Source: Tyzzerella sp. (GTDB taxonomy: Bacteria > Bacillota > Clostridia > Lachnospirales > Lachnospiraceae). From it: 64,000 nucleotides of DNA. The notes below the pieces were generated by a model, which worked only from the letters and a program-made list of their open reading frames with translations, searched no databases and was not told the DNA's origin. The position numbers were made by a program, and so were the translations under genes. The stretch covers positions 43,409-107,408 of the forward strand of contig JAFTWA010000019.1 in assembly GCA_017465565.1 (NCBI GenBank), given 5' to 3'. Below are positions 60 through 62,067 of the stretch, piece by piece (the first letter of the stretch is position 1; the number at the start of each line of letters is the position of its first letter).

Positions 60-114
60 CACTGTTCTCACCTTTTCAAATCACACTAAATTTACTTAGT
101 AGATTTAGAAACAA

Positions 115-666: not shown

Positions 667-684
667 TCTTACTACATTACCTTT

Positions 685-2831: not shown

Positions 2832-3733
2832 CTTGCAAGCTCCAGCATCCTTTCTAGAGGAATCAAAGCTTTTTTCTGCATTTCTTCCCCTACCATCACT
2901 ACATTGTTCTCATTTTCCAACACATCAAGCACTTTTTCTAATGTCACAAATTTCATATCAGTGCAAATCTGATCTTTCGACATTGTATAAAATTTTTTCT
3001 CCGGATTCTGCTTCTTTAATTCATAAAGAACCCCTATCTCTGTTCCGATAATGTACTCTTCGTTTCCATCTTTCGCAACAAACTCTATGATTCCAGAAGT
3101 ACTTCCTATATAGTCTGCTTCATCTAAAAGCTCTTTCGTACATTCCGGATGTACCAGAAATTTAGCTTTAGGATGCTTCTTCTTCTCACTTAGCACTTCT
3201 TCTTTCGTCATTGCTGCGTGAATTGGACAGTAACCATCATTCAATATTATATTTTTTTCTGGAAGCTGTTCCTTTACATAGCGGCCAAGATTTCCATCTG
3301 GAATAAAGAAAATATTCTTATTCGGCAGATTCTTTATTACCTTTATTGCATTAGCTGATGTCACACACACATCAGAGTAGGTTTTAATCTCTGCCGTGGA
3401 ATTAATATAACAAACCACTGCCAGATCAGCATATTTATTCTTGAGTTCCGCTATCCTTTCTAAATTAACCATATGTGCCATTGCACAATCCGCTTTTGCA
3501 TCTGGCATAAGCACCTTTTTGTCTGGATTCAATATGGCAGCACTTTCTCCCATGAAAGAAACACCGCAGAACACAATGATATTTGCATCTGTGTTTTTTG
3601 CAATCTTGCTTAAATAGTAAGAATCTCCTATGTAATCTGCGATTTCCTGTACCTCATCCGGTACGTAATAGTGTGCCAGAATAACAGCATTCTTTTTTTC
3701 TTTTAACTGTTTGATTCTTTCTGCTATCAACAT
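2828..3733 (-). CDS. nadA: quinolinate synthase
   Basis: A 301-residue [4Fe-4S] enzyme that condenses iminoaspartate with dihydroxyacetone phosphate to quinolinate. The three cluster cysteines are visible in CGVSFMGE, HPECTKE and QICTDMK. I place the start at the ATG at 3733 because GGAGG sits five bases upstream. An in-frame ATG at 3763 lies only six bases from the -10 box, at or before the expected transcript start, and so is unlikely to be used. First gene of the NAD operon. Confidence 0.94.
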   Translation of the reverse strand: MLIAERIKQLKEKKNAVILAHYYVPDEVQEIADYIGDSYYLSKIAKNTDANIIVFCGVSFMGESAAILNPDKKVLMPDAKADCAMAHMVNLERIAELKNKYADLAVVCYINSTAEIKTYSDVCVTSANAIKVIKNLPNKNIFFIPDGNLGRYVKEQLPEKNIILNDGYCPIHAAMTKEEVLSEKKKHPKAKFLVHPECTKELLDEADYIGSTSGIIEFVAKDGNEEYIIGTEIGVLYELKKQNPEKKFYTMSKDQICTDMKFVTLEKVLDVLENENNVVMVGEEMQKKALIPLERMLELAR

Positions 3734-3768
3734 GTTTTCCTCCACTCTTTTTTTAATCAACATGTCGT

Positions 3769-3798
3769 ATTATAGCACTCGACTTGCCATATGACAAG
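3769..3798 (-). promoter_or_regulatory. nad operon promoter with overlapping palindrome (candidate NiaR operator)
   Basis: Reading on the minus strand, TTGTCA (3792-3797) and TATAAT (3769-3774) are separated by 17 bases, a near-ideal sigma-A promoter. The -35 box lies inside a 16-base palindrome (3783-3798, CTTGYCATATGRCAAG, one mismatched pair). A repressor bound there would block RNA polymerase. Since niaR is the last gene of the operon, NiaR is the obvious candidate; that assignment is inference. Confidence 0.75.
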
Positions 3799-3868
3799 AC
3801 AGATGTTAAATCTACTGTAAATTTTTTTGACTGCTGCTAATCTTGTAAGTAAAAAATACTTTCCATAC

Positions 3869-3898
3869 AAAAAAGCGCCGCTCTGTAAAGCGACGCCT
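3869..3898 (-). terminator. rho-independent terminator of the lipoprotein gene
   Basis: On the minus strand an 8-bp GC-rich stem (GCGTCGCT paired with AGCGGCGC, one G-U pair, 6-base loop) is followed by six T. It lies just after the lipoprotein gene ending at 3928 and separates it from the nad promoter. Confidence 0.88.
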
Positions 3899-3927
3899 TC
3901 TATACTAATGTTTTATTCAATTTTATT

Positions 3928-4617
3928 CTACAGAACTTCTGTTGTCTGAATTGCAATTGTAATTGCATCAAGAACATCCTGTTTCTGTGTGTCGTCATAA
4001 TATGTTCCGATGTAAGATACAAGATTTCCATCAACAATTGCATAAACCTGAATCTGATTTGTATTTGGAGCATTTAATAAGGTGTCTCTGTTCTGGTCCA
4101 CCCAGTCCTGTGTATACAATCCAGCCTCCACAATATATTCCAAATACTCTTCTGTGTAATCCATAGTGCTTTCAATGTAAATTACGATTTCATCATTGAA
4201 TGTACGCAGTTCTGAGACAGGGAATGTCATCCAGTCGCCAGCTTCTCCCATTCCTTCCATCAGCTGCTTCCTGTTTTCCTCTTCTATCTCTTGTCCTTCA
4301 GGATATTTACCATTTACAGTAGTCACAACGCTGACTGTATATTCATCCTCCCATGTTTCAGTCAGTGCGATACCCAGGTTTTGCATCTGCTCCCAGTGAT
4401 GCCATTTTGTCGAATCGAAAGAAATCTTTACAGTATCGTTTTGTGCCGATCCAAGTGTAACAGATTCTGGATTGACTGCATCTATTGCTGTGTATGCTGG
4501 CTCCTTTTCTTTCTCCTGCTCTTTATCCTTGTCTTCGCTGCTTCCGCAGCCAGCCAGAGAAGTTACGAACAATACAGATGCAAGAAAAAATCCCATAGCC
4601 TTTTTCCAATTTTTCAT
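3928..4617 (-). CDS. predicted lipoprotein of unknown function
   Basis: A 229-residue protein with a type II signal peptide: positively charged start, hydrophobic core and lipobox LAGC, giving lipidated Cys24. A charged linker rich in K, E and D follows, then a globular domain of about 180 residues that I do not recognise. It should sit on the outer face of the membrane. It stands alone, with its own terminator downstream and a gap of about 110 bases to the gene before it, so context says little about its role. Confidence 0.8.
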   Translation of the reverse strand: MKNWKKAMGFFLASVLFVTSLAGCGSSEDKDKEQEKEKEPAYTAIDAVNPESVTLGSAQNDTVKISFDSTKWHHWEQMQNLGIALTETWEDEYTVSVVTTVNGKYPEGQEIEEENRKQLMEGMGEAGDWMTFPVSELRTFNDEIVIYIESTMDYTEEYLEYIVEAGLYTQDWVDQNRDTLLNAPNTNQIQVYAIVDGNLVSYIGTYYDDTQKQDVLDAITIAIQTTEVL

Positions 4618-4725
4618 AATCCTAAGTCCCCTTTCTTTTTTGAGTATTGTATCAAAACAACTGGCAATTTTTTCTACTAATTTAGGGGAAAAATACGTAG
4701 ACTTTTCATTAAAATAAATATGATG

Positions 4726-5184
4726 TTATTCTACTGCCTCTATATCATAAAGAGGCTGCTCGTCTTCGTTAATGAGCATTTCATTTACTTTGTCAATATC
4801 GTATATTTTTTGACCCAGAGCTACAATTAGTAAAACATCTCTTTTGATTTTGGTATATAACTCATTCATTCCATATAATTTTAATGCACGTTGAGTTTGC
4901 TTCAAACTCATTTCCATGGCAAAGCATATGCATAAAATTTTGTCACGGTTCGTTGTATGTACTTCACCAGTCAAAAGCTTATAACCATATTTTTGTGGAA
5001 GATTTGCGCGGATTAAAACATCTTGTCTTTTTAAATTTTTCTGAACGAACAGGATGTCCAAATAGTTCGAAAAAGAAGGCGTACCCTCGCTAAAGTTTTC
5101 CTGCAAATATCCTTTTAACTCTGATGGACTGGTCTGTTTTAATGTATTCATTAAATTGTTTGTGCTTTTTTCAAAAATTGTCAT
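4726..5184 (-). CDS. small helical protein divergent from a Ser/Thr kinase
   Basis: A 152-residue soluble, helix-rich protein that I do not assign to a family. The middle part (about 30-110: FSNYLDILFVQKNL, PQKYGYKLLTGEV, RDKILCICFAMEMSLKQTQRAL) is spaced like a degenerate XRE-type helix-turn-helix, so a regulatory role is possible. It is transcribed divergently from the kinase gene at 5266 across 81 bases, an arrangement often meaning a regulator or substrate of the kinase. An AGAGGAA ribosome site lies nine bases upstream of the ATG. Confidence 0.7.
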   Translation of the reverse strand: MTIFEKSTNNLMNTLKQTSPSELKGYLQENFSEGTPSFSNYLDILFVQKNLKRQDVLIRANLPQKYGYKLLTGEVHTTNRDKILCICFAMEMSLKQTQRALKLYGMNELYTKIKRDVLLIVALGQKIYDIDKVNEMLINEDEQPLYDIEAVE

Positions 5185-5265
5185 CTGTGGTTTCCTCTTT
5201 TCTAAACTACAGGTATATTATATAATAAATCAGATAAAAAAGAAACTTTGATTTACGGAGGTTCT

Positions 5266-6321
5266 ATGCTTTTAGAAAATCAATATCCCCTTTCTACATA
5301 TCAAGATATTACTCCTCTTTGCAAGAATGGACATGTTATGTTGGTACAAAATGAGCGGGATGGAAAACTCTATGTAAAAAAACAATTACTTTGTTACAAT
5401 TTGGATGTTTACTTGCATTTGCAAAAGAATCCAGTTAATAATACTCCGAATATTTATGGAATCTATCAAAAAGAGGCCTCTTCTTCGGAAGACAATAACA
5501 ACCTAATTGTTATTGAAGAATATTTGCCTGGTTCTACACTGGAAGAGCTTCTTGTGCAAAACGGCTGTTTTTCCGAAATGGAAACCATCGATATTGCTAT
5601 GCAATTATGCAAAATTTTGATGGAACTGCATAAATCAAATCCCTCTATTATTCATAGAGATATCAAACCATCTAATTTGTTGATTTCTCCAGAAAAAACA
5701 GTCTATTTACTAGACTTTAATGCTGCTAAGCCAACAAGTACATCCATAGGCAGGGATACCACTCTTTTGGGAACTGCCGGCTTTGCAGCCCCAGAGCAGT
5801 ATGGCTTTTCTGCCTCTTCTCCTCAGACAGACATTTATGCCGTCGGAGTATTAATTAATACACTGCTTATCGGCAAGCTTCCATCGGAACAAATTGCTAA
5901 TGGAAAATTAAAGCGTGTAATTCTCCACTGCCTGGAAATAAATCCGAAGGACCGTTACCACAATGTAAAAGAACTGTATTATGCGTTAAAACGTGTTCGT
6001 GATGTATATTCCGAATTACTGCCTCCAGGCTTTCGTACCATGTGTTTGTATAAAATGTTAATTGCACTGGCCGGATATGCTTTCATCATTGCAGTGACCG
6101 TTTCTACGGAAATACTTGCATTTTTGTTTATCGGCATTCTAACTGTTGCTTTTTACTGTAATTATTTACATATACGGGACAAACTTCCTTTGATAAATTC
6201 TCAACATAAAGCTTTGCGAATCATCGGATTCGTTCTTGCGCCTTTTATAATCTATTGGGGTGCTGTCATACTGATAGTCCTTTTTGAAGCAATAGTCTCG
6301 ATTCGTGTCTTTAATATATAA
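5266..6321 (+). CDS. membrane-anchored Ser/Thr protein kinase (PknB-like)
   Basis: A 351-residue eukaryote-type kinase. The kinase domain covers about residues 15-240: VKK (38-39) as the ATP lysine, HRDIKPSN (130-137) as the catalytic loop, and GTAGFAAPEQYG as activation and APE segments. The metal-binding DFG motif reads DFN (150-152). Two hydrophobic segments near 265-310 and one near 330-350 anchor the protein; no PASTA or other extracellular sensor domain is present. The start is the ATG at 5266 with GGAGG four bases before it; a TTG 18 bases upstream is less likely. Substrate unknown. Confidence 0.85.
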   Translation: MLLENQYPLSTYQDITPLCKNGHVMLVQNERDGKLYVKKQLLCYNLDVYLHLQKNPVNNTPNIYGIYQKEASSSEDNNNLIVIEEYLPGSTLEELLVQNGCFSEMETIDIAMQLCKILMELHKSNPSIIHRDIKPSNLLISPEKTVYLLDFNAAKPTSTSIGRDTTLLGTAGFAAPEQYGFSASSPQTDIYAVGVLINTLLIGKLPSEQIANGKLKRVILHCLEINPKDRYHNVKELYYALKRVRDVYSELLPPGFRTMCLYKMLIALAGYAFIIAVTVSTEILAFLFIGILTVAFYCNYLHIRDKLPLINSQHKALRIIGFVLAPFIIYWGAVILIVLFEAIVSIRVFNI

Positions 6322-6324
6322 AAA

Positions 6325-6360
6325 CCTCAAAATGAGACTGTTTTCAGACTCATTTTGAGG
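6325..6360. terminator. perfect 12-bp hairpin between convergent genes
   Basis: CCTCAAAATGAG (6325-6336) and its exact complement (6349-6360) flank a 12-base loop. On the minus strand the stem is followed by TTTTTATAT, so it terminates best in that direction. On the plus strand it can still act after the kinase gene. Confidence 0.7.
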
Positions 6361-6500
6361 CTTAAATATCTAATTATCTTTCCTGCCCTGTTCTGATTTT
6401 CTCTTGATTTCACAGATGGAAAACTTCCCAAAATCAATATTTTCGATTTTTCATCATAAACCGGCTCAAATGTATGGGTTATATTTTGATATTCTTGCAT
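6327..6500 (-). pseudogene. DNA-deoxyinosine glycosylase, N-terminal remnant
   Basis: The first 30 or so residues (HTFEPVYDE, KILILGSFPSVKSRE) match the start of the uracil/hypoxanthine-DNA glycosylase family related to Mug. The expected continuation, with the catalytic region and about 120 more residues, is missing; after SRE the frame runs into unrelated codons and the terminator hairpin. The start keeps a good ribosome site (AGGAG). This is best read as an internal deletion leaving a 5' stub. A short protein from it should not be active. Confidence 0.65.
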
Positions 6501-6530
6501 GATAAATCTCCTAAAATCCAATCTTGAATG

Positions 6531-7019
6531 CTAATCCGCATTTCCACCAATTGGATTCACTTTGCCACTGTATTCCGTAACAGTAAGCTTAATAACCGCA
6601 GTGCGTGGCACTACTGCTTTGTTATATTCGAAATTACGAGTTCTCTCATCACGATTCATGATGATATCGATTCCTTTGAATTTATCCTCGCCTTCTAAGA
6701 ATTCGATATCAGCTTTACCCATAACACATTTATATCTCATAGTAACATCTTTCACCTTGTGAATGAGTTCCATCTTATGTCCGCAGTCCATTTCAAAAGA
6801 ACATACACCATTCTTCTTCATCAATTCATACTTACGCCCTGCCATAGCTCCATGCAAATAAAAATAAATTTGCTCGTCTTCAATCACATACGCGAAATTC
6901 AATGGAACAATATACGGATAAATGTCATCATCAACTAAACCTATTCTAATAATCTCGCACTCATCGATGATTTGTTTTATCACTTCAAAATCTTTTACTT
7001 CTCTATCTTTTCTTCTCAT
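6531..7019 (-). CDS. pyridoxamine 5'-phosphate oxidase family protein (Nim-like flavoprotein)
   Basis: A 162-residue protein with the FMN-binding split-barrel fold: DREVKDFEVIKQIIDE and an IRIGLVDDDIYPYIVPLNFAY strand pair at the start, YFYLHGAMAGRKYELM in the centre, and VVPRTAVIKL near the end. Family members include nitroimidazole reductases and various FMN or heme binding proteins; the actual substrate cannot be told from sequence. I choose the ATG at 7019 because GGGAGGC precedes it. The longer open frame upstream overlaps the next gene and lacks conservation. Confidence 0.8.
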   Translation of the reverse strand: MRRKDREVKDFEVIKQIIDECEIIRIGLVDDDIYPYIVPLNFAYVIEDEQIYFYLHGAMAGRKYELMKKNGVCSFEMDCGHKMELIHKVKDVTMRYKCVMGKADIEFLEGEDKFKGIDIIMNRDERTRNFEYNKAVVPRTAVIKLTVTEYSGKVNPIGGNAD

Positions 7020-7051
7020 AATCTGCCTCCCATATTTATTTGCCTCTTTTT

Positions 7052-7726
7052 CTATATAATGCCAAACAAAATTAATCCAACTGTATTTATTGCAAAGTTC
7101 GCACACATATGTACCAACCACGATGGATAAATATTTTCGCATTTCTCATTCAAGAAATTGAAAATGCATCCGCCAAGAAACAACCCCAGCATTGCTAATA
7201 TATAAATAAAAATATTGAACCAGCCACTTGTCATTCCCACATGATACAAGGCAAACATTGCAGAACTGAATATGTAAGCAAATTTTTTACTTACCTCCTG
7301 CTTCAGTATTAGAAATGCAAATCCGCGGAAGAAAAACTCCTCCAGTAATGAATTTACAAATGAGATATAAACCGCCACATATATAAAATTGTCTGCAGTA
7401 ACACCTATACCGGAGGTCAAAGAATCTTTGATTTCTGATAAGTTAATATAAGCTCCAAATACAAAGTAGGCTGCCATAATAACTACAAAAACCCCAGTTC
7501 CCAGCAGTAGTGCCAATAAGAAATCCTTTTTCTTTGGTACAAACAGTTTTTTTAAATATACATCTTTGCCTTTATAAATCAGGAAATATATCATCGGTAT
7601 CAGCAAAAATAATACAATCTTTATAATGGATTTGTATAAGTATGGCGGTAATATTACCCCATCAACGAAACACATCACTAACGTTGAAAATATTACCGAT
7701 GCAGTAACATAATTCTTTGCACTCAT
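7052..7726 (-). CDS. CPBP family intramembrane metalloprotease
   Basis: A 224-residue polytopic membrane protein of the CAAX protease/bacteriocin-processing (Abi) family. The three family motifs are visible: EEFFFRGF, the histidine in LYHVGM, and HMCANFAIN (HxxxN). Roughly seven hydrophobic segments. The ATG at 7726 is preceded by GGAGGAG; a longer reading from 7771 has a poorly spaced site. Proteins of this family act in peptide maturation or self-immunity; no bacteriocin gene was seen nearby. Confidence 0.85.
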   Translation of the reverse strand: MSAKNYVTASVIFSTLVMCFVDGVILPPYLYKSIIKIVLFLLIPMIYFLIYKGKDVYLKKLFVPKKKDFLLALLLGTGVFVVIMAAYFVFGAYINLSEIKDSLTSGIGVTADNFIYVAVYISFVNSLLEEFFFRGFAFLILKQEVSKKFAYIFSSAMFALYHVGMTSGWFNIFIYILAMLGLFLGGCIFNFLNEKCENIYPSWLVHMCANFAINTVGLILFGII

Positions 7727-52539: not shown

Positions 52540-55185
52540 TTATTCCACCAAACCATATTTAACCTTGATACGATCCATTTTTTCAAGCATCGGTTCAGCG
52601 GCCATCATAATAAAGAGTGCCGTTCCAAAGGCATGAACAAGGTCCATTGGAAGTCCCGTAATGTAATAAGCAAACAAGATTTCTAGTGTTATACTTTCAG
52701 CGGACACCATAAAAGCAGCAGCAGGGTTCATAATACCACCATAAATAATAACAGCGGCAAAGGCACCGAACACTGCAAGAGAAACGCGGGTTCTGCGAAG
52801 CCATCCTTTCTTAAAAAGAACACCTGCAAGAAAGCCGATAATCCCCATCGCAAACATCTGCCACGGTGTCCAAGGACCTTGTGAAAAAAGCATATTGGAT
52901 GTAAGCATTGTAACAGCCCCTACCAGAAATCCTGTTTCACCGCCGAAAGCTACACCTGCGATAATTGTAAGGGCAAGTACGGGTTTGAACTGTGGCAACA
53001 TAAAGAATAAACTTCTACCAGCAATACCAATAGCGCAAAGAACGGCTATGGTAACAAGCTCCCTGGCCTTTGGTTTTCTCCCTTCAAACACGAGCACAAA
53101 AGGCATCATACATTCAAACAACACCAAAAGTGCTACAAGATTATATTGTCGATCATCTAAATAGAAAATTCCAGCAAATATGGTAAGCGGAATGAATAGT
53201 AATATAGCAAATGATGCCGCGATAGTTCGTTTACTTAAATTCCGTTTTTCTCTTGGAGTTTGCACCACAAGTGGTGGTTCACTTCGCCGTCCAATGGCAA
53301 ACAAGAAGACGGATAGTGCTACAAAAAGAACAAGGTAAAGTGAAAGTTGTTCTTTTCCCTCTGAGCTAATACCAGAAACATTTACAAAGGCAGATAAATC
53401 AGTAATACCCGTTGCATATAAGAATACGCCAACTGCTACAAGTCCCGAAATCAGCGCAAGTATTTTGCGCCATAGTATGAGTGGCTGCGGCTTAAAGTTT
53501 ACACTTCTTGGCATAGGTTCAGGCAAAGGTAACACCTCTTTTGAAGTATACTCTTTCTTCTTGACCGTTCCACCACAACAGGAAACGATATCCTCCACCG
53601 TTACCGCTTTCGGGATTACATGACGCGCCATACGGTTTGCAGGAGTCGTATAAAAACTGTTACCCGAAAAGAATTCACGGGGAGTACCTTCTGCCACGAT
53701 ACTTCCATCAAAAAACAGACCGCAACGGTGAGCGTATTCCGTGCAGAAAGTAACATCGTGGCTTACCATTAAGACTGTTACGCCCTGTTCTGTCAAATTG
53801 TTTATAATATCGGCAAAATTCACTTTGAACTCAGCATCAAAACCCTTGGTTGGCTCGTCTAAAAGGAGAATATCTGGTGCAGTAAGTAACACTTTAGCAA
53901 GTGCAGTCCTTTGCTGTTCGCCACCCGAAATGTCATAAGGATGACGGTCAAGAAACGTTTCAAGGTCACAAAGTGCAACAACACGTGCAACTTGTTTATC
54001 CTTTTTTTCTTTCGATACTTTTACTTCCCTCAACGTCTCGTATAGTTCCTCTCGTACTGTTCGCTTCACAAAAAGTGACTGTGGATTTTGTGGAAGCATC
54101 CCAATCTTGCCATTTGTGTGAACGGTACCTCGATAGGCTAAGCGGAGTCCTGAAACAACTTTCAGTGATGTTGTTTTGCCTGCACCATTACCACCGAGTA
54201 TGGCATAAAATTCGCCTCTATGCAATGCGAGAGAAAACCCTTTCACAACATCTGGCAAATCCTTTTCATAACGGAACCAGATTTCCTTACATTCCAAGGA
54301 TATTTCATCACCATAACAATATTCTGATTTTTCAGCCAATGGTAAAATTGGCTTTTCTCTTTTTCGTGCAGTCAAGAAATCACTACCGTCACGAACGGTA
54401 AGGGGACAAGCAAGGTCGGTTTCCAATCCGGCCCACACTCTCATTGCCGTTGGCATCGCAAGAAACATGCCACTATCTTTATCGCGTAAATGAAACCCTA
54501 CCTTTTCAGGTGTATCGTCACAAACAAGTTTGCCGTTTTCCATTACAATCACTCTTGTAGCAAACGGGAATGCTTCCTCTAGACGATGTTCAGTCAGAAT
54601 CACAGTAATACCTAGCTCACGGTTGATTTTTCCAAGTAATGCCAAGAATTCCGAGGCAGCGATAGGATCAAGCTGTGTTGTAGGTTCGTCAAGCACCAAA
54701 ATCTTCGGGCTCATCGCCATGACCGAGGCAAGACTCAAAAGTTGCTTTTGACCACCCGAAAGTTCGGTCACATTTTTATAAAACCAATTTTCTATACCAA
54801 AAAAAGCTGCAACCTCTGCAACACGCCGACGAATCGTAGGTGTATCATATCCTAAACTCTCAAGGCCAAAAGCCAACTCGTGCCACACCTTGTCGGTTAC
54901 AACTTGATTTTCGGGTGACTGCAAAACAAAACCAATCTCCTGTGACTGAATACGCTCATCCGTTTCCACGAGATCTTTTCCGTTAAAAAAAATTCTCCCC
55001 GAAAGAACGCCATGAGGTGTCAGACAAGTTTTGAAGTGGCGAAGTAGTGTTGATTTCCCACATCCTGAAGGACCACAAAGAATCAAAAATTCGCCCTGTG
55101 AAACTTGAAAGGAGATATTATTAAGCGCTTTATTCTCTTGTTCTGGATAAGAAAAACTCACATTTCTGAAATTAAAGTTTTCCAT
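52540..55185 (-). CDS. fused ECF transporter: two EcfA ATPases plus S component
   Basis: An 881-residue fusion. First ATPase, residues about 1-230 (GPSGCGKST, LSGGQKQLLSLASVMA, ILVLDEPT); second ATPase, about 290-520 (GGNGAGKTT, ISGGEQQRTALAKVLL, ILLLDEPT); S component, about 620-881, with eight or so helices (AVLCAIGIAGRSLFFMLPQF, GGETGFLVGAVTMLTSNMLF). ECF systems take up vitamins; the cobalamin riboswitch at the operon head points to corrinoids. GGAGGAGAGAAA before the ATG at 55185, inside the end of ecfT. All three parts in one chain is unusual, since most ECF S components are separate. Confidence 0.88.
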   Translation of the reverse strand: MENFNFRNVSFSYPEQENKALNNISFQVSQGEFLILCGPSGCGKSTLLRHFKTCLTPHGVLSGRIFFNGKDLVETDERIQSQEIGFVLQSPENQVVTDKVWHELAFGLESLGYDTPTIRRRVAEVAAFFGIENWFYKNVTELSGGQKQLLSLASVMAMSPKILVLDEPTTQLDPIAASEFLALLGKINRELGITVILTEHRLEEAFPFATRVIVMENGKLVCDDTPEKVGFHLRDKDSGMFLAMPTAMRVWAGLETDLACPLTVRDGSDFLTARKREKPILPLAEKSEYCYGDEISLECKEIWFRYEKDLPDVVKGFSLALHRGEFYAILGGNGAGKTTSLKVVSGLRLAYRGTVHTNGKIGMLPQNPQSLFVKRTVREELYETLREVKVSKEKKDKQVARVVALCDLETFLDRHPYDISGGEQQRTALAKVLLTAPDILLLDEPTKGFDAEFKVNFADIINNLTEQGVTVLMVSHDVTFCTEYAHRCGLFFDGSIVAEGTPREFFSGNSFYTTPANRMARHVIPKAVTVEDIVSCCGGTVKKKEYTSKEVLPLPEPMPRSVNFKPQPLILWRKILALISGLVAVGVFLYATGITDLSAFVNVSGISSEGKEQLSLYLVLFVALSVFLFAIGRRSEPPLVVQTPREKRNLSKRTIAASFAILLFIPLTIFAGIFYLDDRQYNLVALLVLFECMMPFVLVFEGRKPKARELVTIAVLCAIGIAGRSLFFMLPQFKPVLALTIIAGVAFGGETGFLVGAVTMLTSNMLFSQGPWTPWQMFAMGIIGFLAGVLFKKGWLRRTRVSLAVFGAFAAVIIYGGIMNPAAAFMVSAESITLEILFAYYITGLPMDLVHAFGTALFIMMAAEPMLEKMDRIKVKYGLVE

Positions 55186-56069
55186 TTTCTCTCCTCCTTC
55201 CAATTCATTATGACAGGTGTTATACAAAGAACGAAATAAACAAAATAAAAAGGTATGGTTGTCATATTCAGTAAAGCATATCGGATATTCGGGAAGTAGC
55301 GAAAACCAAAAGCCATTTGCATCGTTCCCGCAAGCAGAAACAGTCCACAAAACGAAAACCAAATCAACGAATATTTGTCGCGCTCGTCAAAACGATAAAT
55401 GGAAAAAGCGCTTCGCCCTTTCAGCCCATACCCCCGGCTTTTCATACTGTCAGCTGTTTCAATGGCATTTTCAAGCGCCCAAGTAATCATAATTGAAAAA
55501 ATAGCAATGGCCGTTTTGGTTCTACTCCAAAGACTACCACTGTAAATATCTCTGCCAATACTTCGTTGTGCTTCCGCTACAGTAGCCATCTGAGTTTTAA
55601 ACTTCGGGACAAAGCGAAGGGACATGCTAAGCACCAGCGATAAAGCAGGAATTACCTTGCCGAACAAATAAATAAATTTATCCGATGTCATCACACGATT
55701 AAAAGATGTGAACCATAGAAGTAATGTTACAAGCATTGTGCCCGCCGAGAATCCGTATAAGATGCTCTCCAGAGTAAGTGGGTTGCCATTACTGAAATAA
55801 AGTAATGTAGTGGTTCCTTCGTGGTTAAATGCCGGATTGATAAATGCAGTTAAAAGCACCATCGGCAAACAATACTTCAGTAAAAACAGCACACTTTTTT
55901 TACCTGTAGTACTTACTGAGTATGTAATCGCACAAACAAGAGCAATCCCTTGCGCCAGCGGATGTGTAAGCACAAGGGAAAATCCTATCACTAATGCAAA
56001 ATAAAGAAAATTTATAAGCGGATGATACGCTGCGAAACTGTCACGCATAGTTATTTCATCCAATCGCAT
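55158..56069 (-). CDS. ecfT: EcfT energy-coupling membrane protein
   Basis: A 303-residue transmembrane protein of the CbiQ/EcfT family with six to seven helices. Conserved coupling helices appear around AEAQRSIGRDIYSG and DSMKSRGYGLKGR, the second of the two Ala-Arg-Gly type motifs that contact the ATPases. It overlaps its neighbours on both sides by 19-28 bases, so it is expressed together with the fused EcfA-S protein. Confidence 0.9.
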   Translation of the reverse strand: MRLDEITMRDSFAAYHPLINFLYFALVIGFSLVLTHPLAQGIALVCAITYSVSTTGKKSVLFLLKYCLPMVLLTAFINPAFNHEGTTTLLYFSNGNPLTLESILYGFSAGTMLVTLLLWFTSFNRVMTSDKFIYLFGKVIPALSLVLSMSLRFVPKFKTQMATVAEAQRSIGRDIYSGSLWSRTKTAIAIFSIMITWALENAIETADSMKSRGYGLKGRSAFSIYRFDERDKYSLIWFSFCGLFLLAGTMQMAFGFRYFPNIRYALLNMTTIPFYFVYFVLCITPVIMNWKEERKWKTLISEM

Positions 56070-57181
56070 CCTATATCTTTACCAAGATTACAGGTGTATC
56101 GCCATTCTACTTTTTCACCATCCGCCAATTGATAACGCGAACATCCATAATTCGGATACCAACCATTTACACGATACATCCACCCTGAAAGTTCTCCGCA
56201 ATCAAATTCATATAGATTATGGATTCCCTCGATATAAGCACTGTTATATATCGGTGTCCACGAAGATTCCAAATGAATCCCTTTTTCCTTACATACACGC
56301 TGAAGCACGTCAAAAACCGATTCCCCCTCATAGAAGGTAACGGTTGTAGGTGCTAAAATTACACCATTGGAAGGAATTAGTTCACGCTTATCAGAATCAA
56401 GGTCTTTTAAGTTGTTAAGTATTGTGGAACACTCAATAGAAAAAGTACAAGTGTAGCTTTTTTTATTATTGATTTCCTGATTCTCTGGTTCTACCGGCAA
56501 AGGCTTGCCTTCGGGAACGGGGTCCGTTTTGTATTTATCCTGATCAGTGGCATTGCCGTCTGAATAAACACGATTATCTGAATCCTTTACGTCGGTAAGA
56601 TAATCATCTGTTTTATTTGTTCCACCAGCATTTTGTTCAGTGTTCTCGGATGAGTTTGTTTCTGTTGAAGAAGCGCTTTCCGAAAACTTGGTGTCATCAG
56701 GTAAAATCTCACATACAGCAACAATCTTATGTACCGATATGTTCAAGATACTCGTCTTACTACCGGTAATCGAAACTGAATACACATGGTTATCTCCTGC
56801 ATAAGCAATGGCGCTATCTGCTGTCCACTTTTCATTCAAATGAATAGAAAGGAGTGCCGGAAACCCGAAATCCTCCGTCTCTGCAAAGGTAATCTTAAGC
56901 CCTGTTTCAGTTTTATTTAAATCAAGAGACAAATTAACATCTCTTGTTTTTTCAAGGTCGCTTCCAAAAACAGTCCACTCATATTTAATGCCGTTGGATT
57001 CGCCAGTTAAGATGGCAATGGCGTTATTGTCTTTCATCTTATCAAGTATACTCTTTTCAATGATTCCATTTTCCGGAATCGCTATCGGCTCTTTTAAATC
57101 CACCTGTGCAAAACTTCCGTCACAAGCCGTAAAAGACAACAAAATAACAATAGTTATGATTAAACTTATGATTCGTTTCAT
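56051..57181 (-). CDS. DUF4430 lipoprotein, probable corrinoid-binding
   Basis: A 376-residue lipoprotein (lipobox FTAC, Cys20). A beta-rich middle part and an Asn/Ser/Glu linker (about 165-235) precede a C-terminal DUF4430 domain (FYEGESVFDVLQRVCKEKGI, SGWMYRVNGWYPNYGCSRYQ, LADGEKVEWRYTC), the fold of the C-terminal part of intrinsic factor and transcobalamin. It should sit outside the cell, facing the ECF transporter encoded next to it. GGAGAATAAT precedes the ATG. Confidence 0.85.
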   Translation of the reverse strand: MKRIISLIITIVILLSFTACDGSFAQVDLKEPIAIPENGIIEKSILDKMKDNNAIAILTGESNGIKYEWTVFGSDLEKTRDVNLSLDLNKTETGLKITFAETEDFGFPALLSIHLNEKWTADSAIAYAGDNHVYSVSITGSKTSILNISVHKIVAVCEILPDDTKFSESASSTETNSSENTEQNAGGTNKTDDYLTDVKDSDNRVYSDGNATDQDKYKTDPVPEGKPLPVEPENQEINNKKSYTCTFSIECSTILNNLKDLDSDKRELIPSNGVILAPTTVTFYEGESVFDVLQRVCKEKGIHLESSWTPIYNSAYIEGIHNLYEFDCGELSGWMYRVNGWYPNYGCSRYQLADGEKVEWRYTCNLGKDIGCDWMK

Positions 57182-57183
57182 TA

Positions 57184-57795
57184 TTATTCTCCCATCACAA
57201 TCTTGCCGTTTCTCACCTTTAAGGTACCACGTGTCATGGCAAGGCTTTCATTTTCGTCCGATGCCGCAAATACAGCATCTTCAAAAATCAAGTCATACAC
57301 ATCTCCACTGCGGACACTTCCTCGCAAGCGAAATCTCAGCCTTAGCACAACGTTATCTTCCTCAGCAAGAAGTTCTTTGCTGAAAGCATTTTTGCCACCA
57401 GTAGTATCAAGGTACATAATATTAATTTTTCCTGTCTTGTTGCATTGTTCTGGGTTACAACTCCACTCAGGTAATGTCTGCCCTATATCGTTCCCTTCGT
57501 TACGGATGAATACATTTCCTTCTTCCACACCAACAAATTCCAAACGCGAAGAATCAAAGGCTATACTCATGCTCGCCGCAGGATAAATAGCTTCTCCAAA
57601 CGATGAAATTGACATATCAAGCAGAATTTCTTCCGTCTCTTGAATGCTGATTTTATGTGGTGTTTCTATAGTGAGTGTAGGAATCTTCTTAACAATCTTA
57701 TCCCAATTCATAAAAAGAAGAAAAACTATCAGTAAAAGTAGTAAAACTACAACTCCTATACCGATAAAAAGTTTCTTTTTTGTTTTTGAATTCAT
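57184..57795 (-). CDS. membrane-anchored cohesin-like protein
   Basis: A 203-residue protein with an N-terminal membrane helix (LFIGIGVVVLLLLLIVFLLF) and an exposed beta-sandwich of about 150 residues: EEILLDMSISSFGEAIYPAA, FDSSRLEFVGVEEG, GKINIMYLDTTGG, VVLRLRFRLRG and YDLIFEDAVFAAS. The pattern is that of cohesin domains, which bind dockerins. The adjacent gene upstream encodes a dockerin. I infer that it tethers that protein to the membrane. AGGAG precedes the ATG at 11 bases. Confidence 0.72.
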   Translation of the reverse strand: MNSKTKKKLFIGIGVVVLLLLLIVFLLFMNWDKIVKKIPTLTIETPHKISIQETEEILLDMSISSFGEAIYPAASMSIAFDSSRLEFVGVEEGNVFIRNEGNDIGQTLPEWSCNPEQCNKTGKINIMYLDTTGGKNAFSKELLAEEDNVVLRLRFRLRGSVRSGDVYDLIFEDAVFAASDENESLAMTRGTLKVRNGKIVMGE

Positions 57796-57814
57796 TGTTC
57801 TTTTGCTCCTGTTG

Positions 57815-60583
57815 CTATTCGTTTGTACTTAAGGTTGTTGCTTTGGTAACAATCATATATTCGCTACCATCCACAAATGCTTCAACAATGCCTAAAGCAT
57901 CAAAGGTGTTAATTCGACTGTCGCTATTTACATTGAGCGCCAAAATCTCATCATCAGAAGGTGTCTCTGTCTTACGAAGCCATGTGTCAACTGCAGCAAG
58001 TGCATCCTGTGCGTTGATTACTCCATCGCCATTTGCATCACCAAAAGTAATCTCGCTTGCGGTATTGTCTGTCAATGTAAAGTTTGCCTTCTTTGCAAAC
58101 TGTGCCATATCAATCGAAGCATCTACTAAAGCCACATAAGTAGAAACACCTGCAGCTTCAGAAATTTCTTTACTGTACTTGAATTCGTATGCATTTGTGC
58201 CATCACTGTATGTAAGTTTGGTGGCATTTTCTATTCCAACTACCGATACGGCAACTGCCTTTTTACCATACGGAATGAGGTCAATATCATCACCAACATA
58301 CAAGCAAACTGCACTGTAAGAAATACCCTTAACAACATCCACAGAACCTGTCGCACTCTCAGTATCCACAACAATCATCGCATTTTCATCTGTAGAATCC
58401 GAAGATAACTTAATAGACATTCCACTAAGATTCATATTTAGTTTATCTCCTTCATTTACAGAGTCCACACGGAAGGTGACCGTAAAGAACTGTCCAGGAA
58501 ATGCATTGCCGCTAACCGTAAGACTGCTATGATTATTGGCATCAAAGTAAACCACGCGGTGTTTTCCGGTATCTGCTTCAAGATTGTAATTTACTGTACC
58601 TCCGTTAAGACGGTTTCCTGCAGTAACTCCAGTTACACTAAGTCCATCAGGAACATTCATAATAAAGTCAATAAGCTTATAGCCTGCCGTATTGTCCCAC
58701 TGGTCAAGACTAATCGTAGCGTTAAATGTTTTACCAATATCATCGGTAATTTCAGCTGGAAGCCCAAGAGTCGCCTTCGGTTTTCCTGCGACAATCTCTG
58801 CCTTATCTGCAAAACTTACATCTGACATATCATAAAGAGCAGTTTTACTATTCATGAAACGGTTATAGGCAACAAGCGCATAGCAAGCCTGATCGGTAGC
58901 CATACCATTTGCAGTTCCTGCAGCAACATGTTTAAAAGCAGCTTCTTCTTCAATGTAATGTGTCAAAAGTGCATCTACAACAGACTTGCCGTTTTTAACA
59001 AAACGCCTATCCGTATCCGGATTAAATCCCCAAGTAGTTGATGCAACGATTACTTGTGCACAACTTTCAGAGTTGGCATCGCCAAAAGAACTATACGTTC
59101 CATCTGCATTTTGAATATTAGAAAGACAAGCAAATGCCTCGTCCGCTGCGGTTGCTACACTTTCTTGACTCTTATATGGATAAAGAGCCTGCAATACCAT
59201 AGCAGTCACATCTGGGTCAGATGCTGTGCCACTAAGCGCCCACCCGCCATCGGAAAGTTGTTTACTTAAAATATGGTCAATGCATTGCTGACGAATCGTA
59301 ATGTCCGTAGTTTGATAGTCATTCGTGTCTAAAGCAATTAGCGCCCAGATAACACCGTTAAGCCCTTGCTTTTTAATCCAATTAAAATCATCGTAAGGCG
59401 TAATAAGGTTCCAATCTCCAACAGCAGTCGCATCTTTTCCTATAGCAGAAAGTGCAACAATTAAACGAGAGTTATCAGTAGATTTTGATTTGTGAAGTGC
59501 ACCGTTTTGTAATGTTACGGAAGATGCTGTTCCATTGACAGTCTCCACGATGCGATTATAATAATCAGCAAAATATGCATGATCCTTTGCAAAATACTCA
59601 CCACGAGCAAGGCCAAGTACCGTCCATTCACCCGCATTGGTTCCAAAAGCAGGAGCTGAAACCGTAGCTGCAAGCTGTGCCATAGTAGCATTCAACACAC
59701 CACTAACATCCTGTGGCTGACGAGGAGTGTCCTGTGCGGTTACTGTAACAACCGCACATGTCGGAGAAGAAACAATATCCTCCATATTCTCTGCACCGTA
59801 TCCACCATCACACCATAAATACCATGTTCCTGCTGTTGGAAATGTGATAGTTCCTTCCCCACTACTGTCGGTAGTAACACTTCCGGCAGCCTCTCCAACA
59901 CTTGTGCCATAATATACTTCGTATCCAGCTTCGTCATAAACAGCAGCTTCTGAACCCATCGCCGAGTAAGAACGAACCAATTTAAAATTCAGTTCGTCAC
60001 CACTGTCTACACTATAATTATGGGTAAAATTACCTTCATCATCTGCAAAATAGTGGAATCCGGTTGCGCTATCACTATAGAAAGCCCAACTCGTATAACC
60101 GGCAACATCCAAGAAGTCGCCAGCTTGTAAAACAAGCTGATCTGCAGTAACTCCCCAACCATTTACTTCTGGATAGATTCCATTGTAGTAATACATTAAA
60201 TTGCAATCTTCGAATCCAAACAATCCCGACTCAAAGAAAATACTTCCTGCACCACCCGAAACAGAAACTGTAGAAAAATCTCCACCTAGAATTGTTTCAT
60301 GAGTGTATATGTAAAGATGAACAGCAGTGATATCATAGTTACCATCGCCGTCGCCGTCATAAAGATAGTCACTTAGTCCGTAATTATTTAAATCGATGGT
60401 GGCAAGCTCTGATAGTGGCACTGTCGCATAAGCCACAGTATTCCCGTTTTGATCTGTGACAAATTGTCCGTCATAACTGACAGAAATATAAACATTTTCA
60501 CTTTCAGTGGCAAATATAGTCGAAGGTATCATTGTAAACACCATTACAATGGCGAGTAAAATGCTTAAAATTCTCTTTTTCAT
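57815..60583 (-). CDS. secreted intrinsic-factor-like protein with cohesin and dockerin
   Basis: A 922-residue exported protein. Order: signal peptide (1-25); beta domain with DUF4430-like LMYYYNGIYPEVNGWGV (about 100-210); an Ig-like segment (215-290); an alpha/alpha toroid (about 305-610; FNWIKKQGLNGVIWALIALD, QLSDGGWALSGTASDPDVTA, QNADGTYSSF) as in transcobalamin/intrinsic factor and prenyltransferase-like folds; a cohesin-like domain (655-790); and a dockerin (862-915) with Ca2+ loops DANGDGVINAQD and NVNSDSRINTFD. No membrane anchor. Likely a corrinoid-binding protein held on the surface by the neighbouring cohesin. AAGGAGACACTTGTA precedes the ATG. Confidence 0.85.
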   Translation of the reverse strand: MKKRILSILLAIVMVFTMIPSTIFATESENVYISVSYDGQFVTDQNGNTVAYATVPLSELATIDLNNYGLSDYLYDGDGDGNYDITAVHLYIYTHETILGGDFSTVSVSGGAGSIFFESGLFGFEDCNLMYYYNGIYPEVNGWGVTADQLVLQAGDFLDVAGYTSWAFYSDSATGFHYFADDEGNFTHNYSVDSGDELNFKLVRSYSAMGSEAAVYDEAGYEVYYGTSVGEAAGSVTTDSSGEGTITFPTAGTWYLWCDGGYGAENMEDIVSSPTCAVVTVTAQDTPRQPQDVSGVLNATMAQLAATVSAPAFGTNAGEWTVLGLARGEYFAKDHAYFADYYNRIVETVNGTASSVTLQNGALHKSKSTDNSRLIVALSAIGKDATAVGDWNLITPYDDFNWIKKQGLNGVIWALIALDTNDYQTTDITIRQQCIDHILSKQLSDGGWALSGTASDPDVTAMVLQALYPYKSQESVATAADEAFACLSNIQNADGTYSSFGDANSESCAQVIVASTTWGFNPDTDRRFVKNGKSVVDALLTHYIEEEAAFKHVAAGTANGMATDQACYALVAYNRFMNSKTALYDMSDVSFADKAEIVAGKPKATLGLPAEITDDIGKTFNATISLDQWDNTAGYKLIDFIMNVPDGLSVTGVTAGNRLNGGTVNYNLEADTGKHRVVYFDANNHSSLTVSGNAFPGQFFTVTFRVDSVNEGDKLNMNLSGMSIKLSSDSTDENAMIVVDTESATGSVDVVKGISYSAVCLYVGDDIDLIPYGKKAVAVSVVGIENATKLTYSDGTNAYEFKYSKEISEAAGVSTYVALVDASIDMAQFAKKANFTLTDNTASEITFGDANGDGVINAQDALAAVDTWLRKTETPSDDEILALNVNSDSRINTFDALGIVEAFVDGSEYMIVTKATTLSTNE

Positions 60584-60600
60584 TACAAGTGTCTCCTTTT

Positions 60601-60828
60601 TTATTTGATATTTTTTGTAACTTTTTTACGTTTCTTTGATTTTTTAGGCATGACCTTTGCTTCCTTTAATCCAGCCGCCTCTAATGCTCTCGGCCAAGGT
60701 CCCAAAAATGCTTTTAAGCGGGAACGAGTAATCTCATCAAAATCCTCTTTTTTCGGAAGTCGTCCCAATTCTTCTGCCTTCTGGCACAAAAGCCCTACCG
60801 CCCAGTTCTTTTTGTCTTCTGATATCAC
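60601..60828 (-). CDS. small basic protein with HNH-associated repeat
   Basis: About 75 residues, first gene of the operon behind the riboswitch. The core (LGRLPKKEDFDEITRSRLKA, FLGPWPRALEAAGL) resembles the helical DNA-binding repeat found in homing-endonuclease-associated proteins; the tail is strongly basic (KKSKKRKK). The GTG at 60828, seven bases after GGAGG, fits better than the ATG at 60834, which is too close to the site. Its link to corrinoid uptake is unknown. Confidence 0.65.
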   Translation of the reverse strand: MISEDKKNWAVGLLCQKAEELGRLPKKEDFDEITRSRLKAFLGPWPRALEAAGLKEAKVMPKKSKKRKKVTKNIK

Positions 60829-60847
60829 TCTCATCCCTCCTTTACAA

Positions 60848-60885
60848 CAAAAAATACTCTTTCAACCCATCAGGCCAAAAGAGTA
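60848..60885 (-). terminator. second leader terminator, next to the ribosome site
   Basis: TACTCTTT and AAAGAGTA form an 8-bp stem with a 15-base loop, then TTTTTTG on the minus strand, ending just before AAAGGAGG. Either a back-up terminator or a translation-blocking structure. Confidence 0.65.
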
Positions 60886-60936
60886 CAATCGATTTACAAC
60901 AAGGCAACACAAATAACACTTTGAGTATTTTGCAAA

Positions 60937-60992
60937 CAAAAAAAGAATGCGTCACCCAAAGCCAACACGTGGCTATAAATCGGTTGCACTCT
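60937..60992 (-). terminator. riboswitch expression-platform terminator
   Basis: On the minus strand AGAGTGC and GCATTCT pair around an inner hairpin (GCCACGTGTTGGC); seven T follow. It lies about 25 bases after the aptamer and is the likely switch point when cobalamin is bound. Confidence 0.7.
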
Positions 60993-61014
60993 TCTCACCA
61001 AAGTTTGTGTTGAA

Positions 61015-61205
61015 CCAAAAAATATGGCAGGTCTCCTGACTTATGATGTGGTAAACCAAGTTACCCCAGGGCATTCCTTCTCAAAACACCAGCATTGCTA
61101 CCCAATGTTTCAATGGAAATATGTCTCCTTCATCAATTACAGTAATGGCGGTTGTTCCGGAATCAAACCGGATTCCCTTTTCGTCTACTAAGTTCACAAC
61201 TGTTC
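61015..61205 (-). promoter_or_regulatory. cobalamin riboswitch
   Basis: The aptamer is recognised by its conserved pieces on the minus strand, in order: AAGGGAATCCGGTT, ATTCCGGAACAACCGCC, ATTACTGTAA, GATGAAG, and the B12 box GTCAGGAGACCTGCC (61026-61040). In known cases adenosylcobalamin or related corrinoids bind and shut off the downstream genes. It stands at the head of the operon for the secreted toroid protein, cohesin, DUF4430 lipoprotein and ECF transporter, which supports a corrinoid substrate. Confidence 0.93.
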
Positions 61206-61247
61206 AAACCATATCTTTCTTAATTTACTATTCAATTCACGCTGGTA

Positions 61248-61275
61248 ATTATACCATATTTTTCATACATTGCAA
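61248..61275 (-). promoter_or_regulatory. promoter of the cobalamin riboswitch operon
   Basis: TTGCAA (61270-61275), 16-base spacer, TATAAT (61248-61253) on the minus strand, about 40 bases before the aptamer. Confidence 0.75.
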
Positions 61276-61393: not shown

Positions 61394-62067
61394 TTATGAT
61401 TGCATTTTACTTTTTTTCGAATCGTTTTTTAGGTTCTTTTTTATCTCGTATATCACATCTGCCATATCCGCTACTTCAGGTGAGTGAGTAACAATAATAA
61501 CACATTTCCCCATTTCTGCCAGATTCTTAAAGATACCCATAATCTCATTCTGTGTTTCTCCATCCAGATTTCCAGTTGGTTCATCTGCAAGAATGATGTT
61601 CGGGTCATAAGAAAGTGCTCTTGCAATGGCAACTCGTTGTTGCTGGCCGCCCGATAATTTCAGAATTCTTCTGTCAGCTTCATCTCTGTCTAAGCCAACT
61701 TTTTCCAAGAGTTCATATGCCCTTTCTTTCTTATCCTTTTCTTTCATTCCCGAAATTTCCATAGATAATACTACATTTTCTACCGCTGTAAATTTTGAAA
61801 GCAGGTTGAAATTCTGAAAAATAACACCAACAAACTTACTCCTAAAATCATATTTATTTTGGCAACATCTTGGTCTTTATAATAGATTTTACCTGCTACA
61901 GGCTCCGCAAGTCCTGAAAGGAGAGACAGCATAGTGGTCTTTCCCGAACCAGATTTTCCTACAATGGCGTAAATTGTTCCTGCTTCAAAATCAAAGGATA
62001 TATTGCTTAATACATTTCGTCTTTTGTCATACGAATAACAAATATTTTCTATTTTTAATAATGCCAT
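61394..62067 (-). pseudogene. MacB-type ABC transporter ATPase, single-base frameshift
   Basis: Two frames complete one LolD/MacB-like ATPase of about 224 residues. The 5' part has Walker A GKSGSGKTT; the 3' part has LSGGQQQRVAIARAL, Walker B IILADEP and the H-loop VTHS. Near 61855, after the VAKI codons, one base is missing; restoring it gives a clean join through YDFRSKFVGVIFQNFNLLSK, including the Q-loop. As it stands the product stops after about 95 residues. Confidence 0.82.

Follow-up and report, generated by a model that had tools for sequence, protein, structure and literature searches.

A Tyzzerella operon behind a cobalamin riboswitch that joins a toroid-dockerin protein and a membrane cohesin to a CbrT-like ECF transporter: a putative system for tethered corrinoid scavenging

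Introduction

The closest described relatives of the locus treated here, a five-gene operon behind a cobalamin riboswitch in a 64,000-nucleotide stretch of a Tyzzerella sp. genome (GenBank assembly GCA_017465565.1, contig JAFTWA010000019.1; the whole stretch is called the window), come from work on the domains of animal vitamin B12 carriers. Burroughs et al. 2007 defined the SLBB superfamily and, according to excerpts of their paper (PMC1796856), reported bacterial toroid-SLBB fusions and operons with CbiO and CbiQ, predicted that they serve B12 scavenging, and proposed that animal transcobalamin was acquired from Gram-positive bacteria. Mammalian intrinsic factor and transcobalamin use an alpha/alpha toroid together with a beta-grasp SLBB domain (same excerpts). 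On the side of transport, the energy-coupling factor (ECF) transporter ECF-CbrT, whose structure is 6FNP, is known from Lactobacillus delbrueckii; its S component CbrT transports cobalamin and cobinamide, and is predicted to share its ECF module with other S components (PMC5997447, in part). For Gram-positive bacteria, a 2020 review of B-vitamin uptake in the gut mentions btuFCD homologs and the ECF transporter of L. delbrueckii and no other route (PMC6977713, in part).

The Tyzzerella operon brings such parts together with a pair of docking domains. Its genes specify, in order, a secreted toroid protein that ends in a dockerin, a membrane-anchored cohesin, a probable lipoprotein with a DUF4430 (SLBB) domain, EcfT, and a fusion of two EcfA ATPases with an S component. 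We favour, as the probable reading, a corrinoid scavenging system under B12 control, in which the binder is tethered by its dockerin to the cohesin, holds its ligand in a sandwich with the lipoprotein, and delivers it for import by the ECF transporter.

Compared with the systems of 2007, the same two domains are found, both extracellular, beside a CbiO-like ATPase and a CbiQ-like (EcfT) permease, and the proposed role is the same. In contrast to them, the window has its toroid and its canonical SLBB domain on separate tethered proteins; cohesin and dockerin are mentioned 0 times in the main text of PMC1796856, and neither riboswitches nor CbrT appear in the excerpts of it. With ECF-CbrT the operon shares an S component, EcfT and a pair of EcfA, and both S components of this genome have CbrT as their sole match in the PDB; unlike ECF-CbrT, with its predicted shared module, the window fuses EcfA, EcfA and S in one polypeptide and adds extracellular proteins in the same operon. 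The alpha/alpha toroid and SLBB domain recall intrinsic factor and transcobalamin, whereas in the window these domains sit on separate bacterial chains that are predicted to be membrane-tethered. The core of the operon is of a kind predicted since 2007, and what is provisionally new is the proposed cohesin-dockerin tether, its tight co-inheritance, control by a B12 riboswitch, and the link to CbrT.

Results

A five-gene operon behind a cobalamin riboswitch

Open reading frame (ORF) calls place five genes on the minus strand downstream of the riboswitch, for proteins of 922, 203, 376, 303 and 881 residues (Table 1). The first two intergenic gaps measure 19 and 2 nucleotides, and at the remaining two junctions neighbouring genes overlap, by 19 and 28 nucleotides, so the five genes are read as one operon. 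The riboswitch aptamer lies on the same strand, 425 nucleotides before the gene of the 922-residue protein, and is the sole Rfam match in the window that exceeds a gathering score. A preliminary description of the window, made from the letters and a list of ORFs, had named an operon of this composition behind a clear cobalamin riboswitch. Rfam bears out the riboswitch, and ORF calls, Pfam and family profiles bear out the composition, the cohesin inside the first protein being borderline.

The toroid-dockerin protein and the membrane cohesin

The 922-residue protein consists of a signal peptide (recognised by eye), an N-terminal domain, the toroid, a cohesin-like domain, a spacer and the dockerin. 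Dockerin_1 matches residues 848-897 at E 1.9e-6, above the Pfam cut-off, and the calcium loop is duplicated, as in type I dockerins; the loop residues D849, D860, D888 and D895 are aspartate in 29 of 29 dockerin rows of the alignment. The 203-residue protein matches Cohesin at E 6.3e-7, also above the cut-off, and 15 of the 15 members of its alignment do so at E 0.01 or better. Its N-terminus, as read from the sequence, is rich in lysine and followed by a single hydrophobic helix. Membrane helices are oriented by the positive-inside rule, and on this ground the cohesin is probably outside the cell. Both docking domains proposed in the preliminary description are thus matched by their profiles above Pfam cut-offs, the opposite of the missing profile hits that it had named as a refutation.

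The toroid is recognised through its family. The single sequence has a Prenyltransferase toroid match of just E 0.014, below the Pfam cut-off; in a whole-protein alignment of 31 relatives SQHop_cyclase_C is found in 24 and Prenyltrans in 21, and the profile of a 30-member toroid family matches squalene-hopene cyclase chains in the PDB at E 1.1e-14. With cyclases as its best relatives of solved structure, the protein might be an enzyme, of squalene-cyclase or prenyltransferase type or one that modifies corrinoids, and not a carrier. We find this scarcely credible for a protein with a putative signal peptide, encoded in ECF operons with B12 riboswitches and fused to DUF4430 in several genomes. 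Moreover, the motif conserved in the toroid, [DE]-x-D-[MIV]-T, is without the last acid of the DxDD motif of squalene cyclases.

The domain between toroid and spacer, when scanned alone (residues 613-765), matches Pfam Cohesin at E 9e-5, with 23.1 bits against a cut-off of 24.1. The cohesin part that the preliminary description saw in this protein is therefore a borderline cohesin-like domain, just short of the cut-off. Were this inner domain to bind the dockerin of the next molecule, chains of toroids would grow on the 203-residue cohesin as their base and form a multivalent trap. Cohesin matches do appear in 2 of the 31 alignment members (best E 2.3e-4), but hhalign of the domain to the profile of the 203-residue cohesin gives 1.4%, and two relatives that retain both dockerin and cohesin have no inner domain (L181) or at most part of one (L141), which leaves such chains very unlikely. 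The spacer was also tried as a cohesin, without support (hhalign 0.1-0.2%).

Dockerin and cohesin recur together

A toroid search of 84,980 species genomes, with the closer subset of a diverse toroid alignment as its query, confirmed at least 566 relatives, of which the best 80 (78 loci) were kept, a sample that leans to close kin. With a further 82 stretches, taken from the window's genome and from relatives, these loci yield 140 toroid proteins; two genes stand among them twice (L079/L107 and L097/L111, all without dockerin), so that 136 toroid sequences are different. A dockerin is present in 34 of the 140 and comes in two types: 22 proteins, the window's included, carry the conserved spacer, and 12 have no spacer. 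A cohesin gene is counted as absent where the models found none at E 0.001 among the ORFs called on the same strand up to 7 kb away; by this measure a cohesin gene accompanies 21 of the 22 spacer-dockerin proteins and is found near 0 of the 106 without a dockerin. The record of the 22nd (L134) ends 66 nucleotides after its gene. One cohesin, in L142, had been missed by the ORF calls and emerged at E 1.4e-78 from a six-frame search of 15 loci, the other 14 being without a match; further misses of this kind are therefore possible. L140 and L147 match the spacer model since they belong to its alignment, have neither dockerin nor cohesin, and are counted among those without, as is L138, which breaks off before the position of the dockerin; L112, L134 and L153 end at contig edges. 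Cohesin and dockerin, which the preliminary description suggested may build a surface B12 trap, do recur as a coherent pair in a setting of corrinoid uptake and are inherited together.

The rest of the gene set recurs with them. The five-gene order, complete with the EcfA-EcfA-S fusion, is found in records that bear the labels Clostridia (L127, L131), Lachnospiraceae (L133), Ruminococcus (L135) and Oscillospiraceae (L137), among others. In L149 the EcfAA and S parts are encoded separately, and many further records are cut short. Genes for toroid-dockerin, cohesin, DUF4430 and EcfT are present in Clostridium simiarum (L160), in Clostridium (L158, L181) and in Christensenellaceae (L179). All 21 spacer-type relatives were scanned for riboswitches, and 17 have an upstream cobalamin or adenosylcobalamin (AdoCbl) riboswitch on the same strand, L128 barely so at 32.0 bits; among those with enough upstream sequence this amounts to 17 of 18. 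None was found in L126, L137 and L181, which have less than 520 nucleotides upstream, or in L144 despite 9 kb. The gene-neighbourhood survey that had been suggested for this locus thus returns the same set behind B12 riboswitches.

Among the spacer-less dockerin operons, of which L148, L153, L174, L183 and L195 were left out of the scans, six were scanned: L154, L157 and L162 have a riboswitch at 35.7-40.8 bits, and none was found in L166 and L173, both Ruminococcus bromii, or in L176, with 291 nucleotides upstream only. In R. bromii, then, the toroid-dockerin ECF operons have a riboswitch in 1 of 3 strains and no nearby cohesin. A further spacer-less locus, L112 (genome G107, 2-7108, minus strand), carries dockerins both on a protein with two full toroids and on a DUF4430 protein; the riboswitch of the locus scores 34.5 bits, and the genome has 27 dockerin matches.

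A second kind of tether is suggested by the proteins that have no dockerin. A hydrophobic helix in the last 80 residues, as called by a simple hydropathy window, is present in 45 of these 106 and in 0 of the 34 dockerin toroid proteins. The toroid of L139 shares 68% identity with that of the window; this protein, truncated at its start by a contig edge, carries a C-terminal helix of this kind, and no cohesin gene accompanies it. Because the helix is absent from dockerin proteins, and L139 has the one without the other, the cohesin-dockerin pair and the C-terminal helix are read as interchangeable tethers. Fisher tests (p 1.7e-15 and 2.8e-7) take no account of relatedness and carry no weight as evidence on their own.

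The DUF4430 lipoprotein and the likeness to intrinsic factor

The 376-residue protein is a probable lipoprotein, to judge by a lipobox-like FTAC motif seen by eye. It matches DUF4430 at E 1.8e-17 and so belongs to the Pfam family of transcobalamin-type SLBB domains; the C-terminal domain of vertebrate TCN proteins bears the name DUF4430 as well (excerpts of PMC4350170). The preliminary description held that toroid and DUF4430 copy the two-domain plan of intrinsic factor. Both domain families are indeed present, but in the window the order of toroid then DUF4430 (alpha then beta) is not found in one chain: the two are separate proteins, and the N-terminal domain of the toroid protein is not demonstrably DUF4430. 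One chain does hold both in L047, L048, L053, L070, L071, L077, L089 and L098, where the order is that of intrinsic factor and transmembrane helices apparently lie between toroid and DUF4430. The likeness rests on the domain family and on prior literature.

The N-terminal part of the lipoprotein (about residues 21-240) has no Pfam match above cut-off, and as a cohesin it found no support (hhalign 0.1-0.2%). The same module recurs as repeated C-terminal modules of the toroid proteins L046, L065, L088 and L091.

The transporter and the link to B12

For the 303-residue protein Pfam returns nothing at E 1 or better, and since the single sequence is silent its identity as EcfT rests on the family: the profile of 22 members matches solved EcfT chains at E 1.3e-15, the matched EcfT sequence is also present in 6FNP, and CbiQ is found in 14 of the 22 alignment members, the window's own protein not being one of them. 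The fusion protein is counted at 881 residues from its first ATG, a longer frame of 940 residues having a TTG start. Its S part (searched as 52540-53100) has a sole PDB match at E 10 or better, chain A of 6FNP, at E 5.3e-7. By gene content the operon therefore holds what an ECF transporter of the CbrT type comprises, namely EcfT, two EcfA and a CbrT-related S component.

Elsewhere in the genome the same association appears once more. There are 2 cobalamin riboswitch matches, each ahead of a DUF4430 gene, and the only two DUF4430 matches at E 0.01 fall one to each riboswitch locus. The second locus (L010, 7732-6500, minus strand) encodes a 133-residue DUF4430 protein with an N-terminal helix and then an S component of 168 residues, for which the PDB once more gives 6FNP and nothing else (E 1.1e-6).

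Could another ligand be the one imported? The system might take up cobinamide or corrinoid precursors only, or cobalt, with the riboswitch merely tracking cobalamin status. The L. delbrueckii CbrT carries cobinamide as well as cobalamin (PMC5997447, in part), and the wording of Burroughs et al. in the excerpts is "B12 or its precursors" (PMC1796856). Against such a ligand, both S components of the genome match only CbrT in the PDB, and the B12-binding domain PF02310 is found above cut-off at two places in the genome, which makes it quite unlikely. GATase_3, tried as a sign that the genome makes its own B12, has one partial match above cut-off (35.3 bits), but occurs in 14 of 14 control genomes too and does not discriminate.

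Related genomes extend the link between DUF4430 and the riboswitch. We took 58 genomes, 5 from the genus that match the 922-residue protein and 53 from the family that match DUF4430. Of the 82 DUF4430 matches listed for them, 42 follow a same-strand riboswitch at a distance of at most 10 kb, where the chance expectation by our own arithmetic is below 1; several of these matches share an operon and are not independent, and weaker ones are absent from the count. Seen from the other side, 36 of 105 riboswitch matches have such a DUF4430 gene, and 11 of the 58 genomes have no riboswitch match. Two of the related loci carry riboswitches in series: L120 (G177:C66) has three consecutive cobalamin riboswitches, each followed by a DUF4430 protein, the last cut by the contig end, and L055 (G235:C17) has four within about 7 kb, distributed over the two strands, in the vicinity of genes for DUF4430, toroid and ECF proteins.

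Beta-propeller loci in three other genera

Docking domains also appear near B12 riboswitches on proteins of another fold. In G111, G167 and G222, of three other genera, riboswitches of 44.5, 54.9 and 99.6 bits lie ahead of dockerin-bearing proteins: secreted proteins with beta-propeller-type, cadherin-like and dockerin domains come first, then cohesin proteins, and DUF4430, toroid and ECF genes follow further down the same strand. The cohesins are anchored by a C-terminal hydrophobic helix (G111), by choline-binding repeats (G167) or by an LPXTG-type signal (G222), the last cohesin having been found by a custom model and not by Pfam at E 0.001. The cohesin thus seems to be a cell-bound socket that comes in several versions.

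The propellers of these loci (L106, L107, L108 and L110) recall BtuG of Bacteroides, a seven-bladed beta-propeller lipoprotein that captures B12 at the surface and works with BtuB (PMC6143338, in part). BtuG and the operon are alike in surface-exposed B12 capture beside a transporter in gut bacteria, a role that is a prediction for the operon. They differ in that BtuG is itself a beta-propeller and has the outer-membrane transporter BtuB as its partner; the related operons of G111, G167 and G222 encode beta-propeller-type proteins too, with dockerins. One of these B12 loci (L107, 429-4964) also includes, in a row, a MoxR-type AAA ATPase, a DUF58 protein and a transglutaminase-core protein; rows of similarly sized proteins, alike by size alone, occur in G005, G030, G167, G183 and G222.

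Leader and neighbouring features

The leader of the operon contains two elements that are consensus matches only. One is a promoter-like site just upstream of the riboswitch; the stretch contains 7 sites of this pattern, where shuffled sequences average 3.3, so that it is weak taken alone. The other is a terminator-like hairpin about 120 nucleotides past the aptamer, a possible expression platform of the riboswitch; the two strands together hold 3 hairpins of this kind, where shuffled sequences average 0.7. An ORF for an HNH_repeat (homing endonuclease associated repeat) protein, overlooked by the preliminary description, sits between the riboswitch and the gene of the toroid protein, and phmmer finds a similar ORF in 12 of the 18 relatives with a usable leader. 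Upstream of the operon an ABC ATPase (61394-62067, minus strand) is present as two short ORFs of 95 and 122 residues, apparently through a split frame or an assembly error. The genome is a draft, 88.6% complete.

Table 1. Features of the operon and its leader, in positions of the window (aa, amino acids)
Feature	Position	Strand	Evidence
Promoter-like site TTGCAA-16-TATAAT, TG ahead of second hexamer	61275-61248	-	Pattern scan
Cobalamin riboswitch aptamer RF00174	61228-61009	-	83.2 bits, gathering score 31.5
Terminator-like hairpin, 15 pairs (4 G-C), then T run	60886-60854	-	Pattern scan
HNH_repeat protein, 77 aa	60834-60601	-	PF18780, E 1.9e-10
Secreted toroid-dockerin protein, 922 aa	60583-57815	-	ORF calls, Pfam, family profiles
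Alpha/alpha toroid domain, residues 289-612	59719-58748	-	Family profile, SQHop_cyclase_C in relatives
Inner cohesin-like domain, residues 614-765	58744-58289	-	Pfam Cohesin, borderline
Conserved spacer module before dockerin, residues 766-843	58288-58055	-	Present in 22 spacer-dockerin operons
Dockerin, residues 848-905, two calcium-loop repeats	58042-57869	-	PF00404
Membrane-anchored cohesin, 203 aa, cohesin at residues 73-191	57795-57184	-	PF00963
Probable lipoprotein, 376 aa, C-terminal DUF4430 at residues 286-363	57181-56051	-	PF14478
EcfT, 303 aa	56069-55158	-	Family profile
EcfA-EcfA-S fusion, 881 aa	55185-52540	-	ABC_tran in two stretches, ECF_trnsprt (Pfam)
CbrT-like S part of fusion	about 53103-52540	-	PDB match 6FNP_A

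Discussion

From the gene content, the riboswitch, the domain assignments, the joint inheritance of dockerin and cohesin, and the sequence kinship of the S component with CbrT, we infer the following course of events. At low cobalamin the riboswitch would permit expression, as its class suggests, and the 922-residue toroid protein would be secreted. Its spacer-dockerin would plug into the 203-residue cohesin, in a calcium-dependent manner as in other dockerins, and the binder would be kept at the cell surface. There the alpha/alpha toroid would capture a corrinoid, and the DUF4430 (SLBB) domain of the lipoprotein would close over it, as the two domains, alpha and beta, do in intrinsic factor and transcobalamin. 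The ligand would then be handed to the CbrT-like S component, and EcfT with EcfA-EcfA-S would import it using ATP. The cohesin-dockerin pair would be one of several swappable tethers, the others being a C-terminal transmembrane helix or a fusion of toroid and DUF4430.

Several results weigh against this scheme. The association of cohesin with dockerin is phylogenetically clustered, with 5 independent contrasts on supported branches; on the tree of toroids, 8 changes account for the dockerin label and 9 for the cohesin label. In the five contrasts cohesin follows dockerin in a median of 4 and goes the opposite way in 0 (sign test, median p 0.125), and the C-terminal helix opposes dockerin in 1-2, with mostly no difference (median p 1); neither result is significant, the contrasts being too few. 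None of the 12 spacer-less dockerin toroid proteins, among them those of three R. bromii strains (L154, L166, L173), has a cohesin gene within 7 kb; two of these loci (L112, L153) are cut by contig ends. PDB profile matches of the cohesin family are weak (E 0.045-0.24), and two further cohesin places in the genome are possible partners of the dockerin. As for the sandwich, the N-terminal domain of the 922-residue protein reaches 7-8% in hhalign with DUF4430, and its assignment to that family is unsupported for the toroid proteins of the window's clade; the N-terminal domain is DUF4430 in two other subgroups of the alignment (hhalign 99.7-99.8%). The 55-member DUF4430 profile finds Transcobalamin-2 in the PDB at E 0.59, fifth of 6 with unrelated proteins ahead, and hhalign to a Transcobalamin-2 fragment gives 82%, a weak link. 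The toroid profiles, at E 10 or better, match cyclases in the PDB and no transcobalamin or intrinsic factor, so that close sequence kinship of the toroid with these carriers is unsupported.

Might the dockerin bind another scaffoldin, in a complex like the cellulosome or amylosome, while the cohesin of the operon receives other dockerin proteins? The spacer-less operons point that way: those of R. bromii (L154, L166, L173) and of L157, L162, L176 and L153 have a different dockerin subtype and no nearby cohesin that could be found, and R. bromii has scaffoldins with cohesins (PMC5814915, in part). Across the window's genome, at 88.6% completeness, there are 3 matches to cohesin, and 5 to dockerin that fall at 4 places, which leaves two more cohesin places and three other dockerin places. 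The operon itself is like a cellulosome or amylosome in its cohesin and dockerin families, in the conserved calcium-loop residues, and in the predicted use of a cohesin as cell-surface anchor. It is unlike them in its cargo, a putative vitamin-uptake protein; no glycosidase, carbohydrate-binding module or multi-cohesin scaffoldin was seen in the operon, and the listed Pfam matches of its proteins include no glycoside hydrolase or carbohydrate-binding domain, and hence not the combination of multi-cohesin scaffoldin and dockerin glycosidases that defines a cellulosome. Spacer-dockerin and operon cohesin occur together in 21 of 22 cases, in records that bear the labels Ruminococcus, Oscillospiraceae, Lachnospiraceae, Clostridium and Christensenellaceae. 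An outside scaffoldin is for these reasons an unlikely partner of the spacer-type dockerin, and we retain the cohesin of the operon in that role.

A wider model could have merit, and we put it forward tentatively, as possible but less likely than not: on two or more occasions, once with toroids and once with beta-propellers, gut Clostridia may have adopted cohesin-dockerin docking as a general platform for assembling B12 capture at the surface, and the binder of R. bromii may sit on the amylosome scaffold. R. bromii is very limited in vitamin synthesis (PMC5814915, in part) and unable to make B12 (PMC6231298, in part). The terms B12, cobalamin, prenyltransferase and DUF4430 are absent from the main text of the paper on its amylosome (PMC5814915).

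How much of this has been described before? Among the papers listed we found no published cohesin-dockerin pair in B12 uptake, a provisional result, as many journals lie outside the literature searched. A term search of the main text of a 2025 cellulosome review returns neither vitamin nor cobalamin nor transporter (PMC12484212), and a paper that mentions both cohesin and cobalamin treats its cohesin and dockerin proteins, in the excerpts, as adhesins (PMC10553843). The preliminary description knew of no system with this composition. That provisionally remains so for the cohesin-dockerin tether, but not for the core of toroid, SLBB, CbiO and CbiQ, which is in the excerpts of Burroughs et al. 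2007 (PMC1796856).

While BtuG of Bacteroides has been worked out as a capture protein (PMC6143338, in part), the capture of B12 outside Gram-positive gut cells is little described, and the operon offers a small set of expressible proteins with which to approach it. If the proposed reading is true, cohesin-dockerin docking would serve vitamin uptake, and not the digestion of polysaccharides, in about 20 species-level records, and the 2007 proposal on the origin of transcobalamin would become testable through natural intermediates, including the chains in which toroid and DUF4430 are fused. If the amylosome reading holds as well, a single surface machine of R. bromii would capture both starch and a vitamin.

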